From Ilumatobacter coccineus YM16-304 (GTDB taxonomy: Bacteria > Actinomycetota > Acidimicrobiia > Acidimicrobiales > Ilumatobacteraceae), in the NCBI RefSeq assembly GCF_000348785.1, contig NC_020520.1, positions 1,860,001 to 1,924,000 on the forward strand: 64,000 nt of DNA, read 5' to 3'. The position numbers were made by a program, and so were the translations under genes. Below the pieces are notes generated by a model. That model searched no databases and had not been told where the DNA came from. It was given only the letters and a program-made list of their open reading frames with translations. Shown one piece after another: positions 56,892 through 63,723 of the stretch. The number at the start of each line of letters is the position of its first letter. Position 1 is the stretch's first letter.

Positions 56892-57460
56892 GCGCCACAC
56901 CCAGCAACGGGGCACGCCCGACCTCTGAACGCATCGAGCCCGTCTCGCTCGACGGCGCCGAAGGAGAACTCGCCGACATCCTCGCCGGAGCCCTCACGCA
57001 CGACGGCACCCCGCTCAACATCTTCGGCGTGCTCGGACGCCACCCCAAACTCCTCAAGCGGTTCAACCTCATGGGCGGCTTCATCCTCAACAAGGGCCTC
57101 ATCCCAGCCCGCGAACGCGAGATCGTCATCCTCCGCGTCGGCCACAACGCCCGAGCCGAGTACGAGTTCGGCCAACACACCGTCATCGGCAAGCAAGTCG
57201 GACTCACCGACACCGAGATCGCCGCGCTCACCCGCAACGACGGCGACTGGAGCGCCGACGACGCCGCACTCATCGCCCTCGCCGACGACCTCCACGCCGA
57301 CGACTGCGTCAGCGACGCCACCTGGGCAGCACTCTCGACACGCTGGAACGACGAAGAGAAGATCGAACTCCTCATCGTCGCCGGTTTCTACCGACTCGTC
57401 TCCGGCTTCCTCAACAGCGCCGGCGTCCAACTCGACGACGGCATCCCCGGCTGGCCGTAA
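56888..57460 (+). CDS. Carboxymuconolactone decarboxylase-family protein
   Basis: A protein of 190 residues of the AhpD/CMD fold: LADILAGALTHDGTPLNIFGVLGRHPKLLKRF, LIPAREREIVILRVGHNARAEYEFGQHTVIGK, then ALADDLHADDCVSD. The peroxidatic CxxC of AhpD is absent; the motif is RAEYEFGQH with glutamate, tyrosine and histidine instead, as in lactone decarboxylases and uncharacterised relatives. The ATGA overlap with the PEP-mobile gene implies a shared pathway. The 528-bp repeat-rich region follows. Confidence 0.88.
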   Translation: MSATPSNGARPTSERIEPVSLDGAEGELADILAGALTHDGTPLNIFGVLGRHPKLLKRFNLMGGFILNKGLIPAREREIVILRVGHNARAEYEFGQHTVIGKQVGLTDTEIAALTRNDGDWSADDAALIALADDLHADDCVSDATWAALSTRWNDEEKIELLIVAGFYRLVSGFLNSAGVQLDDGIPGWP

Positions 57461-57461
57461 C

Positions 57462-57917
57462 GCTTTTTCGACGGCTCACCGCACGTCGGAGGTTTTAACA
57501 ATCTGATCGCCGTCGAGCCAGGCTTGGTCGCTGGCGCTCCCGGCGCCGGCCGTCTTGCACGTTGGCGGTGGGGTCTGGCCGACGAGATGCTTTTCGACGG
57601 CTCACCGCCACGTCGCAGGTTCTTGACGCTTGATCGCCGTCGAGCCGGGCTTGGTCGCTGGCGCTCCCGGCGCCGGCCGTCTTGAACACTCGTGGTGGGG
57701 TCTGGCTGACGTGATGCTTTTCGACGGCTCACCGCACGTCGGTGGTTGTCCATTCTTGATCGCCGTCGAGCCAGGCTTGGTCGCTGGCGCTCCCTCCGCC
57801 GGCCGTAACGCTTTTCGACGGCTCACCGCCACGTTGGGGGTTGTCGAAGCTTGATCGCCGTCGAGCCAGGCTTGGTCGCTGGCGCTCCCTGCGCCGGCCG
57901 TCTTGAACACTTGTGGT
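57462..57917. repeat. Four-copy intergenic repeat with conserved hairpin
   Basis: Four related units start at 57462, 57589, 57716 and 57810, with periods 127, 127 and 94 bp. Each holds CTTTTCGACGGCTCACCG, then GATCGCCGTCGAGCC, GGCTTGGTCGCTGGCGCTCCC and GCCGGCCGT. In units 1 and 2 GGCGC-TCCCG-GCGCC forms a hairpin; in unit 4 the loop changes but the arms stay paired, while unit 3 pairs one base fewer. The region (57461-57988) shows no credible gene; minus-strand frames across it are shadows. Confidence 0.8.
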
Positions 57918-57988
57918 GACGCCACCCACGGCTCGGCCGATGCGCGTTTGTCCCAAGGACGAACGCGCATCGCGCTCGGTGTTTCGGA

Positions 57989-58786
57989 TCAGTTGCCGGT
58001 GAAGGTGGGCTTGCGTTTGTTGGCGAAGGCGGCGATGCCTTCTTGGCCGTCGTGGGTGTCCATCGACGCCGAGATGGTGACCGCCTCGAACTCGCCGGCC
58101 GACTCGAGCGCCCGCTCGTAACCCTCGTAGATCACACGCTTCGCATGACCGAGCGCCCACGCCGGGCCGTCGGCGAGCTTCTGTGCCAACGCAGCCGTCT
58201 CGGCGTCGACATCGTCGTCGGGAACCACCCGGTTGACCAGACCCCACTCCTCGGCCGTCGCCGCGTCGAGCACACGGTTCGTGAGCGTGAGATCCATCAT
58301 CCGACGCAGACCGATGTGGCGCGCCACGAAGTAACTCGACGTGCCGTCGGGCGTGACCCCGGCGTTGGTGTACGCCATCGTGTACTTGGCCGACTCGGCC
58401 GACACGACCAGATCGAACGCCGCCATGAGCGACAGACCGGCACCGCCCGCAGCACCACGAACCCCGGCGACGAACGGCTTCGGCAGCCGATTCATCTTGT
58501 AGATCGCGCCATGGAAATCGACCAGCATGTCGGTCGCCAGGCGAGACACCTGGTCCCCGACCTCGGCGAACAGCTTGAGATCGCCGCCGGCACAGAACAC
58601 CTTGCCCTCCGCCGTGAACGACGCCGCCTTCACGTCGTCGTCGAACTCGATCTCGATCATCACATCGCGCAGATCTTTCGAGAACTGCGGATTGACGGCG
58701 TTGGCGCCCTCCGGACGATCGAAACGGACGTGCGCGACGCCGTTCTCGGTGTGGTACTTGATGGTTTCCAGGTCGAGCGTGCTCAT
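57989..58786 (-). CDS. Enoyl-CoA hydratase/isomerase (crotonase) family protein
   Basis: A 265-residue crotonase: VRFDRPEGANAVNPQFSKDL, the oxyanion region VFCAGGDLKLFAEVGD, then VRGAAGGAGLSLMAAFDLVVS. The second glutamate position reads GVTPDGTSSYFVARHIG, with Asp in place of the usual Glu, which is common in isomerases. It shares a TGATG junction (1-nt overlap) with the upstream SDR gene, so they are cotranslated. Specific reaction unknown. Confidence 0.92.
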   Translation of the reverse strand: MSTLDLETIKYHTENGVAHVRFDRPEGANAVNPQFSKDLRDVMIEIEFDDDVKAASFTAEGKVFCAGGDLKLFAEVGDQVSRLATDMLVDFHGAIYKMNRLPKPFVAGVRGAAGGAGLSLMAAFDLVVSAESAKYTMAYTNAGVTPDGTSSYFVARHIGLRRMMDLTLTNRVLDAATAEEWGLVNRVVPDDDVDAETAALAQKLADGPAWALGHAKRVIYEGYERALESAGEFEAVTISASMDTHDGQEGIAAFANKRKPTFTGN

Positions 58787-59568
58787 CAGTACGGCATTGT
58801 TCCACCGTCGACCGGGAACATGTTCCCGGTCATGTTGCGAGCAGCATCGGACGCCAGGAACAGCGCGACGGCACCGACCTCCTCGACCTTGTTCGGACGC
58901 TTGATCGCCGACTCCGCCGAGAACATCTCGATGAGTGCGTCGTAGCCGTCGAGCCCCATCGCCACCGCCGAATCCGGGCCGGTGTCACGGACGATGTCGG
59001 TCTCGATCAGACCCGGCAGGATCGCATTGACCGTGATGCCGAGCGTGCCGACCTCCTGCGCCGCCGCCTTGACCAGACCGTTGACGGCGTGCTTCGTCGC
59101 CGAATAGCCCGGAATGCCGGGCTTGCCCAACTTGCCTTCGACCGACGACGTGACGATCACACGACCCGACTCACGCGGGATCATGTGCTGCAGCGCTCGC
59201 CGCATCCCCCAGAACACATGGTTCAGGTTCCAGTCGATCTCGAGCTGCCATTCCTCGTCGCTCATCTGCGCGACCGGCGCGGTGTTCAGCACACCACCCG
59301 AGTTGAGGCAGCAGATGTCGAGTTGGCCGTACCGCTCGATCGTGAAGTCGATCAGCCCTTCGACAGCATCCTGCTTGGCGGCGTCGCCCGCATAGAAGTC
59401 GGCATTGTCACCGGCCCCCATCTCGGCGAGACACTCCGCGCCTTTCTCGGCGTTGCGGCCGTTGACGACCACCTTCGCGCCCTCAGCGATGAACGCCTCG
59501 GCCATGGCCCGGCCGATGCTCCGTGTGCCGCCCGTGATGCAGGCGACCTTTCCGTCGAGCTTTCCCAT
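58786..59568 (-). CDS. Short-chain dehydrogenase/reductase
   Basis: A 260-residue SDR: ACITGGTRSIGRAMAEAF, LNSGGVL in place of NNAG, serine in VIVTSSVEGKLGKPG and YxxxK in PGYSATKHAVNGL, ending TGNMFPVDGGTMPY. It is a close paralogue of the neighbouring gene at 59627-60406 by motif-by-motif comparison. An AGGAA ribosome site precedes ATG 59568. It should act on a hydroxyacyl-CoA or related alcohol. Confidence 0.92.
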   Translation of the reverse strand: MGKLDGKVACITGGTRSIGRAMAEAFIAEGAKVVVNGRNAEKGAECLAEMGAGDNADFYAGDAAKQDAVEGLIDFTIERYGQLDICCLNSGGVLNTAPVAQMSDEEWQLEIDWNLNHVFWGMRRALQHMIPRESGRVIVTSSVEGKLGKPGIPGYSATKHAVNGLVKAAAQEVGTLGITVNAILPGLIETDIVRDTGPDSAVAMGLDGYDALIEMFSAESAIKRPNKVEEVGAVALFLASDAARNMTGNMFPVDGGTMPY

Positions 59569-59626
59569 TGTCGATTCCTCTTTCAGTCCTTGATCTTGTG
59601 CAGCGTCGTGATGTGGCGAACGTCGA

Positions 59627-60406
59627 TCAGTACGGCGAGGTCCCGCCGTCGACCGAGATCATCGATCCGGTGATGCCGGCGCCGGCATCGGAGGCGAGCA
59701 ACACGCAGATCTCCGCGACGTCGCGGGTCTCGTTCAGTCGCTTGATCGCCGACTCCTCGGCGAACACGTCGAGCAGGCCCTGGTAGTCGAGCCCCATCGC
59801 TGCGGCGGCGGGCGGACCCTCGGCCTTCATGATGTCGGTCTCGATCGCTCCCGGGCAGACCGAGTTGACCGTGATGCCCATCGTGCCGACCTCTTGCGCC
59901 GCCGACTTGGTGAGGCCGTTGATGGCGTGCTTCGCCGTGACGTAGATCGAGAGCCCGGGCTTGCCCATCTTGCCCTCGACCGAACTCATCGTGATGATGC
60001 GTCCCGACTGCTGCGGGATCATGTGCTTGAGGGCCGTCTGCATCGTCCAGAACGTGTGCCAGAAGTTCCACACGAGCGAATCCTGCATGGCCTCGTCGGT
60101 CAGGTCGACGACCGGCGCGTGGTTCGACGCTCCACCCGCGTTGGCGAACAGGATGTCGATCTGGCCGAAGTGGTCGACCGTGCCGTTGACGATCGCTTCG
60201 CAACCCTCGCGGGTCTTCACGTCGCCACCGATGAAGTGGACGTCGTCGCCCGCATCCATCTCGGCGATCGCCTGCTTGCCCTTCTCTTCGCTTCGGCCGT
60301 TGATGACGACCTTCGCGCCTTCGCGCACGAATGCCTCGGCCGCGGCCCGGCCGATCCCGCGCGTGCCGCCGGTGACGCAGGCAACTTTGCCGTCGAGTGC
60401 TCCCAT
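59627..60406 (-). CDS. Short-chain dehydrogenase/reductase, tandem paralogue
   Basis: A 259-residue SDR: ACVTGGTRGIGRAAAEAF, FANAGGAS, serine in ITMSSVEGKMGKPG and YxxxK in SIYVTAKHAINGL, ending TGSMISVDGGTSPY. The start at ATG 60406 follows an AGGGGAA ribosome site; a longer frame to 60442 lacks such a site. Its similarity to the gene at 58786-59568 indicates tandem duplication. It is the first gene of the leftward SDR-SDR-crotonase group. Confidence 0.92.
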   Translation of the reverse strand: MGALDGKVACVTGGTRGIGRAAAEAFVREGAKVVINGRSEEKGKQAIAEMDAGDDVHFIGGDVKTREGCEAIVNGTVDHFGQIDILFANAGGASNHAPVVDLTDEAMQDSLVWNFWHTFWTMQTALKHMIPQQSGRIITMSSVEGKMGKPGLSIYVTAKHAINGLTKSAAQEVGTMGITVNSVCPGAIETDIMKAEGPPAAAAMGLDYQGLLDVFAEESAIKRLNETRDVAEICVLLASDAGAGITGSMISVDGGTSPY

Positions 60407-60440
60407 TGGTTCCCCTGACCCTGATGTTGGAGTGAATGAC

Positions 60441-60456
60441 ACCGACGTGTGTCGGT
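60441..60456. promoter_or_regulatory. Inverted repeat in divergent promoter
   Basis: ACCGAC-GTGT-GTCGGT is a perfect 6-bp inverted repeat in the 116-bp gap between the divergent SDR (60406) and SnoaL-like (60523) genes. It is a possible operator; the regulator is not known. Confidence 0.35.
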
Positions 60457-60522
60457 CGTGGCGGACCGTAACAAAAACGCCCGCCTCGATTCGATGTCGG
60501 ACGTCGATGTAGGGATGGCGGG

Positions 60523-61044
60523 ATGAATACGATCTCGAATCCGACGCCGACCCTCGAGACGCTGCTCGCCGTCGAAGCGTGCCGCGAGGCGGCCCGCCGC
60601 TACAGCCACGGGGTCGATCGCCTCGACCCCGACACGATGCGATCGGCGTACTGGCCCGACGGCACCGACGACCACGGCACGTTCGTCGGCAACGCCCACG
60701 ACTTCGTCGAGCACTGCATGACCGGACACACCCGGTGGGCGTGGACCATGCACTCGATCTTCAACCATCGAGTCGAGATCAGCGGAGACGGACGGACCGG
60801 GCGCGGCGAGGTCTACAACGTCACCAACCTGATGCGCGCCGACGAGCGAGTGCTCGACACCTGGTACGGGCGCTACCTCGACGAGTACGAGCAGCGAGAC
60901 GGCGAGTGGCGGATCCTGCATCGAGTGTGCGTGCACGAAGGCGACACGGCGCAGGCTGTTCCCGACGGGATGCCCATCGACGCAGCGGCGTTCCGGCAGG
61001 GCGCGTTCGATCGCCCGTCGAACGGACGACGCTTCGGCCCGTGA
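60523..61044 (+). CDS. SnoaL-like / NTF2-fold protein
   Basis: A protein of 173 residues with the SnoaL_4-type fold: LLAVEACREAARRYSHGVDRLDPDTMRSAYWPDGTDDHG, then HSIFNHRVEISGDG and DTWYGRYLDEYEQRDGEWRILHRVCVHE. Relatives include small dehydratases and the beta-like subunits of ring hydroxylases. Histidine and aspartate residues in the core could be catalytic. It diverges from the SDR operon and ends directly against the convergent selenoprotein gene with no gap. Function unknown. Confidence 0.85.
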   Translation: MNTISNPTPTLETLLAVEACREAARRYSHGVDRLDPDTMRSAYWPDGTDDHGTFVGNAHDFVEHCMTGHTRWAWTMHSIFNHRVEISGDGRTGRGEVYNVTNLMRADERVLDTWYGRYLDEYEQRDGEWRILHRVCVHEGDTAQAVPDGMPIDAAAFRQGAFDRPSNGRRFGP

Positions 61045-61587
61045 TCAGCGCGATGCGGCGACCGCGGCGATGACGTCGTCGACCGAGGGACGGTCGGCCG
61101 GGCCGTCTCCCCAGTAGCCCCACGCGAGTGTGCCGTCGGGAGCGATGACGAAGTCACCGGCCAACTGGCGGGTGTCTTCGGTGGCGCGTTCGAGATGTCG
61201 ACGCCCGCGTCGGAGGATCGAGGCGTACTTCTTCACAGCCGCCCAGTTCCAGACGTCGGTGAACGAGCCTCGACCGAGCCCGTAGGCCCGATAGACGCTG
61301 CGGTCGAGGTCGCGCAGGATCGGGAAGGCGAGCGGGTTGCGCGCCTCGTACTGCTCGAACGGTTCGTCGCCGAACACGATCAACACCACGTCGGTGTCGT
61401 CACCCAGTTCGTCGATGCGCTCGCTCACGGCGGCGGCGTGATCTCCACACGGCAGTCAATGGTTGTGGCGATGGAAGACGACCACGACGGCTCGTCCCCG
61501 ATGGTCGGCGAGCTTCCATCGCCCGCCGCGGCTCGACGGCAGGTCGATGTCGGGCGCCGGCAAGCCGATCGTCGGTCGAGCGATCAC
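61045..61587 (-). CDS. Probable selenoprotein: SelL-related/peroxiredoxin-like redox protein with in-frame TGA
   Basis: Read through one TGA (61456-61458), the frame from GTG 61587 to 61045 encodes 180 residues of an AhpC/TSA-type thioredoxin fold. The N-terminal part is GLPAPDIDLPSSRGGRW and VVVVFHRHNH. TGA is codon 44, followed by Leu-Pro-Cys47, giving U-L-P-C in the place of the redox CxxC of relatives. Downstream the family continues (VLIVFGDEPFEQYEARN, YGLGRGSFTDVWNW, LAGDFVIAPDGTLAWGYWGD). The start overlaps the upstream stop (GTGA). If TGA is not read as selenocysteine the gene is broken, but sequence on both sides stays in frame. Confidence 0.8.
61423..61443 (-). promoter_or_regulatory. 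Candidate bacterial SECIS hairpin
   Basis: Starting 13 nt after the TGA codon the mRNA can form TCACG-CCGCCGC-CGTGA, a 5-bp stem with a 7-nt loop, extended by a G-C pair across one mismatch. The loop starts 20 nt after the TGA, within the range known for bacterial SECIS elements. The loop sequence is not diagnostic and the prediction is by eye. Confidence 0.4.
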
Positions 61588-62276
61588 GACGCAGCCCCCG
61601 GGAGCGCGGCGAGGAACGCATCGGGCAGCACGCCGAGATCGACCGGATCGGCGAGCCCGGTGGCGACACCCTCGGGGGAGAGTCCGTCGGGCCAGGCGTC
61701 GGCGCGGACGCAGGCTCGCAGCATGTCGTCGTCGGTGCCGTTGACGAGCAGACCCTGGAAACGGGCGACGTGGCGTTGGCGTCGCTGCGACAGCCCCACC
61801 ACCTTGCTCGGGTCGCTCGCGCCGTCGCGGTGCTGGACGACCTCGCCCGGTCCGAGCCCGGCGAAGCAGAGGAACCGACCCTCGGCCGCGTGTTCGAGCC
61901 GGCCGGTGTGCACCGTGAGATCGGGGACTCCGAGACCGGTGAGGGTGCGCAGCCAGGTGTCGCCGACCCAGTGGAAGGCGCGGTTGACGTCGTCGCTCCA
62001 CAGCGTGTGGCTCGGCGGGATCAACACGTCGATCCAGCAGCTCGCGTCGGGATCGACCAGCACGAGCCCGCCGCCGCTACGCCGCGTGCAGACTTCGACG
62101 CCGAGTGCTGCGGCGGCGTCGTGGTCGATGATGTCGTCGCGCTGCGAACTCCCGAGTACGAGCGCCGCTCGTTCGACCCGATGGATCCACACCGTGGGGG
62201 CGGTGACCGACGCGAGGTCGCGGTGGTGAAACGGTCCGGCCTCGCCGACGCTCACCTCGACCGACCACTCGCTCAC
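61584..62276 (-). CDS. Lipoate-protein ligase A-like (BPL/LplA) protein
   Basis: A 230-residue protein of the biotin/lipoate ligase fold. The lipoyl-AMP binding motif is CTRRSGGGLVLVDP, followed by WIDVLIPPSHTLWSDDVNRAFHWVGDTWL. The active-site lysine lies in DPSKVVGLSQRRQRH. It should attach or transfer lipoyl or octanoyl groups to proteins. It starts with GTG 62276 and its stop overlaps the selenoprotein start by 4 nt, so a dithiol-related redox link between the two is possible. Confidence 0.85.
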   Translation of the reverse strand: MSEWSVEVSVGEAGPFHHRDLASVTAPTVWIHRVERAALVLGSSQRDDIIDHDAAAALGVEVCTRRSGGGLVLVDPDASCWIDVLIPPSHTLWSDDVNRAFHWVGDTWLRTLTGLGVPDLTVHTGRLEHAAEGRFLCFAGLGPGEVVQHRDGASDPSKVVGLSQRRQRHVARFQGLLVNGTDDDMLRACVRADAWPDGLSPEGVATGLADPVDLGVLPDAFLAALPGAAS

Positions 62277-62311
62277 CGATCGAACGGTATCCCCACGCGA
62301 ACTGCGTCAAA

Positions 62312-62326
62312 CGGTGTCAGACACCG
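62312..62326. promoter_or_regulatory. Perfect 7-1-7 palindrome in divergent promoter
   Basis: CGGTGTC-A-GACACCG lies in the 76-bp gap between the divergent lipoate-ligase-like gene (start 62276) and the M20 peptidase gene (start 62353). It may be an operator for both. The half-site also occurs as CGGTGTC at 7281 and 7292 near another gene end. Confidence 0.45.
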
Positions 62327-62352
62327 AATGACGGGTATGGGAGGGTGGTGGG

Positions 62353-63723
62353 ATGGGTGCGACGATCGAGCAGTTGGGTGGCGAGACGGTCGAACTGCTC
62401 CAGCAGATGATCCGCAACCAGTGCGTCAACGACGGCACGCCGGAGTCGGGCCACGAGCACCGGACGGCCACGCTGCTCCGCGACGAGATCGAACAGCTGG
62501 GCATCGATCACGAGTTGATCGAGGTCGCCCCGGGCCGCACCTCTCTGGTGGCTCGACACGCCGGCACCGACCCCACAGCGCCGGCGCTCTGCCTGATGGG
62601 GCACACCGACGTGGTACCGGCGAGCCCCGAAGGGTGGCGCCACGATCCGTTCGGCGGAGAGATCATCGTCGCATCCGACGGCACCCCCGAGGTGTGGGGG
62701 CGTGGTGCGGTCGACATGCTCAACCTCACTTCGTCGATGTTCGTGGCGTTTCGCGAGATCGTGCGCACCGGCAAGCGTCACCCGGGCGACCTGGTGTACT
62801 TCGCGGTCGCCGACGAAGAGGAGGGCGGTGCGCTCGGGGCGAAAGACATCGTCGCCAACTCCTGGGATGCGGTGCGCTGCGACTACGTGCTGACCGAGTA
62901 CGGAGGGACCCCGTCGGTCGGCGCCGACGGCACGACGGTGTTGCTCACGACCGGGGAGAAGCAGGCTGCGCCGTTCCAGATCACCGTGCACGGAACGCCC
63001 GGACACGGCTCGATGCCCTATGCGACCGACAACGCGTTGGTCAAGGCCGCCAAGATCGTGAGTCGCATCGCCGAGCACCAGGCCGACCCGTTGATCGACG
63101 AGATGTTCACCGAGCGGATCCGGTCGCTCGGCCTCGGCGACGACCTCACGGCTCGACTCATCGACCCGGCCGCGATCGACGACGCCCTCGCGGAGTTGCC
63201 GACCGACCTGGCGCGCAACGTGCACTCGTGTTGTCACACCACGTTCAGCAGCAACGTGATGCGAGCCGGGCGCAAGGGCAACACGGTGCCCGACAAAGCG
63301 ACGGTGTGGGTCGACATCCGCCTCCGACCGGGCGAGAACAAGTACGACGCCGAACGGCAGCTGCGCGAGATCATCGGCGACGATCTCGCCCCGTCGGTCG
63401 ACGTCGAGGCGATGCGCCCCGATCTCCCCGAGAGCAATCCGTTCTCGTCGACCGACACTCCGATGTGGGACGCGTTGGCCGACTCGATCCGGATGGCCTA
63501 CCCCGATGCCAAGGTGATCCCGAGCCTCGTGACCGGGGCGACCGACGCCAGGTTCTTCCGTCAGCGCGGCGTGCAGGCGTACGGCGCCGGGTTGCTGAGC
63601 AACAAGGTGAGCCTGCCGGAGTTCCTCCGACGTTTCCACGGCAACGACGAGCGCATCGACATCGAATCGCTGCAACTCACCACCCAGATGTGGCTCGACG
63701 TCTGCAACCGCCTCTGGCACTGA
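62353..63723 (+). CDS. M20-family metallopeptidase / deacylase
   Basis: A 456-residue two-zinc hydrolase of the M20 family. Metal ligands and catalytic residues are seen in CLMGHTDVVPASPEGW, VWGRGAVDMLN, VADEEEGGALG and, near the end, the histidine in FLRRFHGNDERID. The dimerisation domain includes VHGTPGHGSMPYATDNALV. Members cleave dipeptides or N-acyl amino acids. It is preceded by a palindrome and followed by a strong hairpin, so it appears to be a single-gene unit. Confidence 0.93.
   Translation: MGATIEQLGGETVELLQQMIRNQCVNDGTPESGHEHRTATLLRDEIEQLGIDHELIEVAPGRTSLVARHAGTDPTAPALCLMGHTDVVPASPEGWRHDPFGGEIIVASDGTPEVWGRGAVDMLNLTSSMFVAFREIVRTGKRHPGDLVYFAVADEEEGGALGAKDIVANSWDAVRCDYVLTEYGGTPSVGADGTTVLLTTGEKQAAPFQITVHGTPGHGSMPYATDNALVKAAKIVSRIAEHQADPLIDEMFTERIRSLGLGDDLTARLIDPAAIDDALAELPTDLARNVHSCCHTTFSSNVMRAGRKGNTVPDKATVWVDIRLRPGENKYDAERQLREIIGDDLAPSVDVEAMRPDLPESNPFSSTDTPMWDALADSIRMAYPDAKVIPSLVTGATDARFFRQRGVQAYGAGLLSNKVSLPEFLRRFHGNDERIDIESLQLTTQMWLDVCNRLWH

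Follow-up and report, generated by a model that had tools for sequence, protein, structure and literature searches.

A probable selenoprotein gene with a U-L-P-C site, close to the SelL-related family, in Ilumatobacter coccineus YM16-304

In the 64-kb stretch of I. coccineus YM16-304 DNA analysed here (the window), a minus-strand reading frame for a redox protein contains a single TGA where the first residue of its active-site motif would lie. This locus raises the question of whether the TGA ends translation, is an error in the sequence, or is decoded as selenocysteine (Sec). The anatomy of the gene, the conservation of TGA or Cys at this codon, the presence of Sec machinery, and two other UGA-containing genes agree with the proposal of the first-pass annotation that this is a probable selenoprotein with a UxxC site. 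From these lines of sequence evidence we infer Sec insertion, and we conclude that the gene is very probably a selenoprotein gene whose UGA is read as Sec.

Reading frame and neighbouring genes

The reading frame consists of 43 codons, the TGA, 136 further codons, and the stop (Table 1), and the read-through protein around the site reads VVVVFHRHNH-U-LPCGDHAAAV. The TGA is thus at the first redox position of U-L-P-C, as the first-pass annotation had it, and aligned relatives carry TGA or Cys there. The claimed family similarity on either side of the TGA is also present, as a Pfam AhpC-TSA match spans residues 7-155 of the read-through protein (E 7.1e-17) and a match to NCBIfam NF040769 spans residues 11-175 (E 1e-33). 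When open reading frames were called with table 11, only a 127-residue C-terminal piece (61045..61428), in frame after the TGA, was obtained, which is what had been expected of ordinary gene callers. This result would fit a TGA that is a true stop, in a gene that has decayed or in a locus split in two with just the 127-residue part produced, an explanation that is weighed below against the sequences of relatives.

Table 1. Features of the locus, in positions of the 64-kb window
Feature	Position	Strand	Detail or basis
Probable selenoprotein gene, AhpC/TSA-type, near SelL-related family	61045..61587	minus	GTG start 61587-61585, stop TGA 61047-61045, 180 aa
In-frame TGA, codon 44, U of U-L-P-C, most likely Sec	61456..61458	minus	TGA in orthologs
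Codon 47 (TGT), partner Cys of U-L-P-C	61447..61449	minus	invariant across 19-row alignment A1
GTGA overlap of upstream ORF stop and selenoprotein start	61584..61587	minus	sequence, 4 bases
Upstream overlapping ORF, lipoyl protein ligase-like	61584..62276	minus	Pfam LplA-B_cat E 1.9e-11
Candidate bacterial SECIS hairpin, CGCCGC / GCG-A-GCG	61418..61435	minus	family-level constraint; not significant in target alone
Alternative hairpin register UCACG / CGUGA, near that of the first-pass annotation	61425..61441	minus	sequence and register statistics

The GTGA overlap reported at the start of the gene is present, and the ORF upstream of it matches a lipoate-ligase-type catalytic domain, but this partner lacks a counterpart at the other loci that were compared. 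No relative of the lipoate ligase was found in 68 loci (L051-L118) at E ≤1, or in L020-L078 at 1e-3 besides the window's own, and the coupling is therefore a local arrangement. The neighbourhoods of 16 ortholog loci and the window were compared over at most ∼5 kb per side, using ORFs of at least 90 residues and BLASTP scores of at least 60 bits. The most widely shared groups were the selenoprotein gene itself and its antisense frame; no fixed neighbour gene was found around the 16 loci, where one group occurred in six loci and several in three, with place and strand scattered.

Three other features of the window were observed near this locus. A SnoaL-like ORF on the plus strand (listed at 60523-61047) ends at 61044 and abuts the selenoprotein stop at 61045, a convergent arrangement with a gap of 0. 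At 58786-60442 on the minus strand, two adjacent ORFs resemble related short-chain dehydrogenases when their translations are compared by eye. Overlapping ORFs at 57400-57970 contain recurring similar peptide blocks (also by eye), which suggests a short repeated intergenic DNA element.

The TGA codon in relatives and the selenocysteine machinery

The read-through protein was searched against overlapping sets of 396 genomes of the phylum, 395 of the class, and 397 of the order. At E ≤1e-20, the order-wide search matched 39 of 397 genomes, with that of YM16-304 included. All 39 matches contain one internal TGA, and two of them contain a TAA or TAG besides; eight of the 39 were not fetched and are each listed with one TGA whose codon position was not placed. 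Among the fetched ULPC orthologs, target included, codon 44 is TGA in 35 of 36 sequences and TGC in the other (L057), at identities of 38-60% to the target across the fetched orthologs. The codon for the partner Cys in the 35 TGA orthologs is TGC in 25 and TGT in 10. Full-length alignment with relatives, a check proposed with the first-pass annotation, shows either TGA or Cys at the site: more distant relatives (n = 25) have TGA in 22 cases and Cys in three (L038, L042, and L044). In addition, 13 further class members have TGA within the same motif, and a weaker match (L068) is another redoxin that does not contain the motif. These orthologs and relatives were taken as the top matches to a query of Sec type, so Cys forms are probably under-sampled. 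A single-protein scan of genome contigs gave 48 pattern matches, with no relative among them.

The relationships of these sequences were analyzed in a tree of 74 sequences in which U was written as C (L041, L045, L046, and L068 were omitted from the 78 loci in range; L049, L050, and L076-L078 lie outside the range of the tree). A branch with support 100/98 separates the 36 ULPC sequences from the rest, and the target is in the HRHxxULPC group, which is distinct from the ULIC group and the others. With midpoint rooting, the Cys ortholog L057 falls inside the ULPC group.

The pattern at codon 44 bears on two of the alternatives. That 35 of 36 orthologs share the TGA of codon 44 between conserved flanks, with Cys as the single exception, argues against a true stop, since in a decaying gene a single stop would not be expected to persist at the same redox codon throughout many genera; we consider the true-stop explanation very improbable. 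TGA differs by one base from both Cys codons, so a TGC or TGT could have been turned into TGA by a sequencing error. Such an error is extremely improbable, given that separate assemblies carry the identical TGA (35 of 36) and that the genome paper, in its available text, sets a Phrap quality limit of 70 or 40 for every base (PMC3910706).

Decoding of this codon as Sec would require the corresponding machinery, and the genome contains all four of the genes (selA, selB, selC, and selD) whose search had been proposed. One tRNA-Sec was found (66.5 bits versus a cut-off of 47; ARAGORN tRNA-SeC(tca)), together with selA (413.2 bits), selB (275.1 bits), and selD (369 bits), each above its curated cut-off. 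Matches below cut-off to tRNA-Sec, selB, and selD appear in 14 of 14 control genomes, and therefore only matches above cut-off were counted.

Two other genes in this genome have UGA at classical Sec sites. The selD gene (L018, genome 2441028-2441951, minus strand) has UGA in HGAGUGCKL, so that SelD is probably itself a selenoprotein, and the gene for the catalytic part of FdhA (L119, genome 3455269-3457146, minus strand) has UGA in SCNRTUHAPSVV. The accessible part of a published motif list gives UxxK for SelD and UHxP for FdhA (PMC13188914). At least three UGA genes (the present gene, selD, and fdhA) thus point to a genome in which Sec decoding would work. The N-terminal Fe-S part of the formate dehydrogenase was observed as a separate ORF (L125, 3452613-3452780, minus strand) at a distance of ∼2.5 kb, which would fit a split subunit.

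These findings also bear on the alternative that the UGA is suppressed, or read as Trp or Cys, in a selenium-free manner. The complete Sec pathway in the genome, the alignment of the site with Cys in four homologs, and the UGA codons at the classical Sec sites of SelD and FdhA each argue against a selenium-free reading, which we regard as highly improbable. Insertion of Sec at codon 44 is thus the explanation that we prefer.

Of the 34 TGA orthologs fetched besides the target, the 10 from the class search had their genomes examined for Sec genes. A tRNA-Sec was present in 10 of 10 and selB was above cut-off in 9 of 10; the other genome (G551, an assembly of about 290 contigs) had no selB match at E ≤1e-40. 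A tRNA-Sec was present as well in 16 of 20 same-family genomes listed with no class-search ortholog match at E ≤1e-10, so the co-occurrence of orthologs and Sec genes is not sharp. The same count runs against the first-pass statement that Sec is uncommon in actinobacteria, as a tRNA-Sec is common among genomes of this family. In the genome that contains the Cys ortholog L057 (G411), selB was above cut-off and no tRNA-Sec match was found at E ≤1e-8; this is perhaps a genome that is losing Sec.

Candidate SECIS hairpins downstream of the TGA

The first-pass annotation had placed a possible SECIS hairpin 13-33 nt after the TGA. This stretch does fold, weakly (-4.5 kcal/mol), and the evidence from the family favours a loop 27-31 nt past the TGA, with the first-pass register as a less favoured possibility. 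In the target, three stretches that surround or follow the TGA were not more stable than shuffles (z +1.1 to +1.2). The favoured hairpin has the loop CGUGA 27-31 nt past the TGA (61429-61425), a spacing of 26, six pairs, and one bulged A; when the T of TGA is numbered 1, the loop is at 30-34 and pairs run outward from 29/35. Its energy in the target is -6.4 kcal/mol alone and -7.7 and -10.5 kcal/mol with flanks, where the register shifts, and 119 of 500 synonymous recodings are equally stable, so the target hairpin is unremarkable on this measure. In the accessible part of its description, the bSECIS model has a loop of 3-9 nt with G in the first two positions, a spacing of 16-37 nt, a stem of 4-16 bp, and an MFE of -7.5 or lower (PMC13188914). 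A permissive bSECIS pattern matches 35 of 36 sequences and is given no weight, because the Cys form matches as well. At E ≤1, Rfam gave no match within window positions 60000-62400.

Evidence for the favoured register comes from the orthologs. A stem of at least three contiguous pairs beside a loop with GU at 31-32 is present in 30 of the 35 TGA orthologs versus 8.7 expected from synonymous recoding, a count reached by 0 of 2000 recodings with relatedness uncorrected. GTG encodes the Val of the loop in 31 of 33 sequences versus a background of 45% (binomial p 3e-9, relatedness ignored). Two orthologs, L081 and L083, have the loop GGUCG and retain every pair of the favoured register (8 of 8), and in both of them the alternative register is broken when the sequences are read by eye. 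In a scan of placements, z was 6.6 for the favoured register; the alternative helix scored 7.0 when read with a loop of 9 nt and 5.8 with one of 7 nt, and further hairpin placements were raised too. In four TGA orthologs (L054, L086, L097, and L098), just 2-3 of the 8 pairs of the favoured register can form. Shuffling codons among same-residue sequences gave no covariation signal (pairing 5.91 versus 5.87, with 644 of 2000 shuffles as high) and RNAalifold found no consensus structure on the orthologs, so compensatory covariation in the clade is not supported. Taken at the level of the family, the evidence favours a hairpin with the loop CGUGA, in a register that we infer from these sequences.

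The ULIC relatives (L021-L033) contain a strong SECIS candidate of their own. At nt 19-33 from the T of TGA, 12 of 13 sequences share the 15 bases CACCTCGTGAAGGTG, a count uncorrected for relatedness, and the other one has CATCTCGTGAAGATG, in which both sides of one pair are changed. This stretch looks as a SECIS would be expected to look.

A possible Sec lineage and its relation to known redox proteins

The tree and the hairpin analysis can be read together, with somewhat less than even confidence, as a distinct, nearly always Sec-containing HRHxxULPC lineage beside the SelL-related family, in the order and class of the window's organism (a class that we take to be Acidimicrobiia). On this reading the lineage would have its own SECIS layout, with a loop CGUG ∼26 nt after the UGA that would hold Ala-Val codons fixed. 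If it is true, the lineage is a natural case for asking why aerobic bacteria keep Sec. A group in which 35 of 36 sampled orthologs have TGA and one has Cys offers a way to ask what a redoxin gains from Sec relative to Cys. The analysis also mends a gene model that ordinary callers would shorten to 127 residues, and it finds tRNA-Sec to be widespread within the actinobacterial family concerned. The organism, an aerobic marine actinobacterium, gains a probable Sec protein, and no word starting with "seleno" occurs in the main text of its genome paper as available (PMC3910706). Open-licence literature gave no match for a selenoprotein in Ilumatobacter, although the gene may have been published elsewhere, and none for "SelL-related".

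The nearest solved structures to the protein are peroxiredoxins (Prx/Bcp) and ResA (2ywn, 2cx3, and 1st9; profile E 1.3e-17 to 1.3e-13), and a weaker profile match to prostamide/prostaglandin F synthase (9us9) covers most of the profile, positions 15-172 (E 8e-10). In the two ResA rows shown, the CxxC of ResA aligns with both positions of the profile's U/C-x-x-C. In two peroxiredoxin rows with the motif Cys, this Cys pairs with Cys47 of the target and the Sec position is Thr or Ser. These alignments favour a thiol-disulfide or peroxide reductase that would act via a Sec44-Cys47 Se-S bond, and we give about even odds to a chemistry of thiol-disulfide exchange or peroxide reduction. In the proposed mechanism, a short stem-loop close downstream of the UGA of codon 44 would direct SelB and Sec-tRNA(Sec) to insert Sec there. 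Sec44 and Cys47 would then be the redox pair of U-L-P-C on a thioredoxin fold: attack by the selenol of Sec44 on a disulfide or a peroxide would lead to an Se-S bond with Cys47, which a cellular thiol donor would reduce.

The closest family to the predicted protein is the NCBI SelL-related redox protein family NF040769, which the available main text of a 2026 review does not mention. The SelL-related identity given by the first-pass annotation is supported by a full-length match (profile 3-172 of 173, E 1e-33) in which U44 and C47 occupy the U/C-x-x-C site, but the score of 116.4 bits falls 3.6 short of the cut-off of 120, and the target is therefore a close relative and not a filed member. 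All 19 members of alignment A1 match NF040769 at E ≤0.001. Of seven other ULPC sequences compared with this profile, L051, L052, L053, L057, L059, and L080 exceed 120 bits and L061 is below.

SelL proper has a UxxU motif with two Sec residues, whereas the second position in the target is Cys (TGT). The peroxidatic motif of peroxiredoxins is TxxC, from which the target differs in having Sec at the first motif position and Cys at the last. The Sec-containing peroxiredoxin motif is listed as TxxU in the accessible part of PMC13188914. Selenoproteins described as Prx-like thiol:disulfide oxidoreductases (PF00578, UxxC/UxxU; PMC13188914 and PMC9312934, each in its available text) and as Prx-like 1 (pfam00578, UxxC; available text of PMC2398784) are like the target in their AhpC/TSA domain and in having Sec in UxxC. 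As judged from its predicted sequence, the target is of an already known kind, a UxxC Prx-like selenoprotein.
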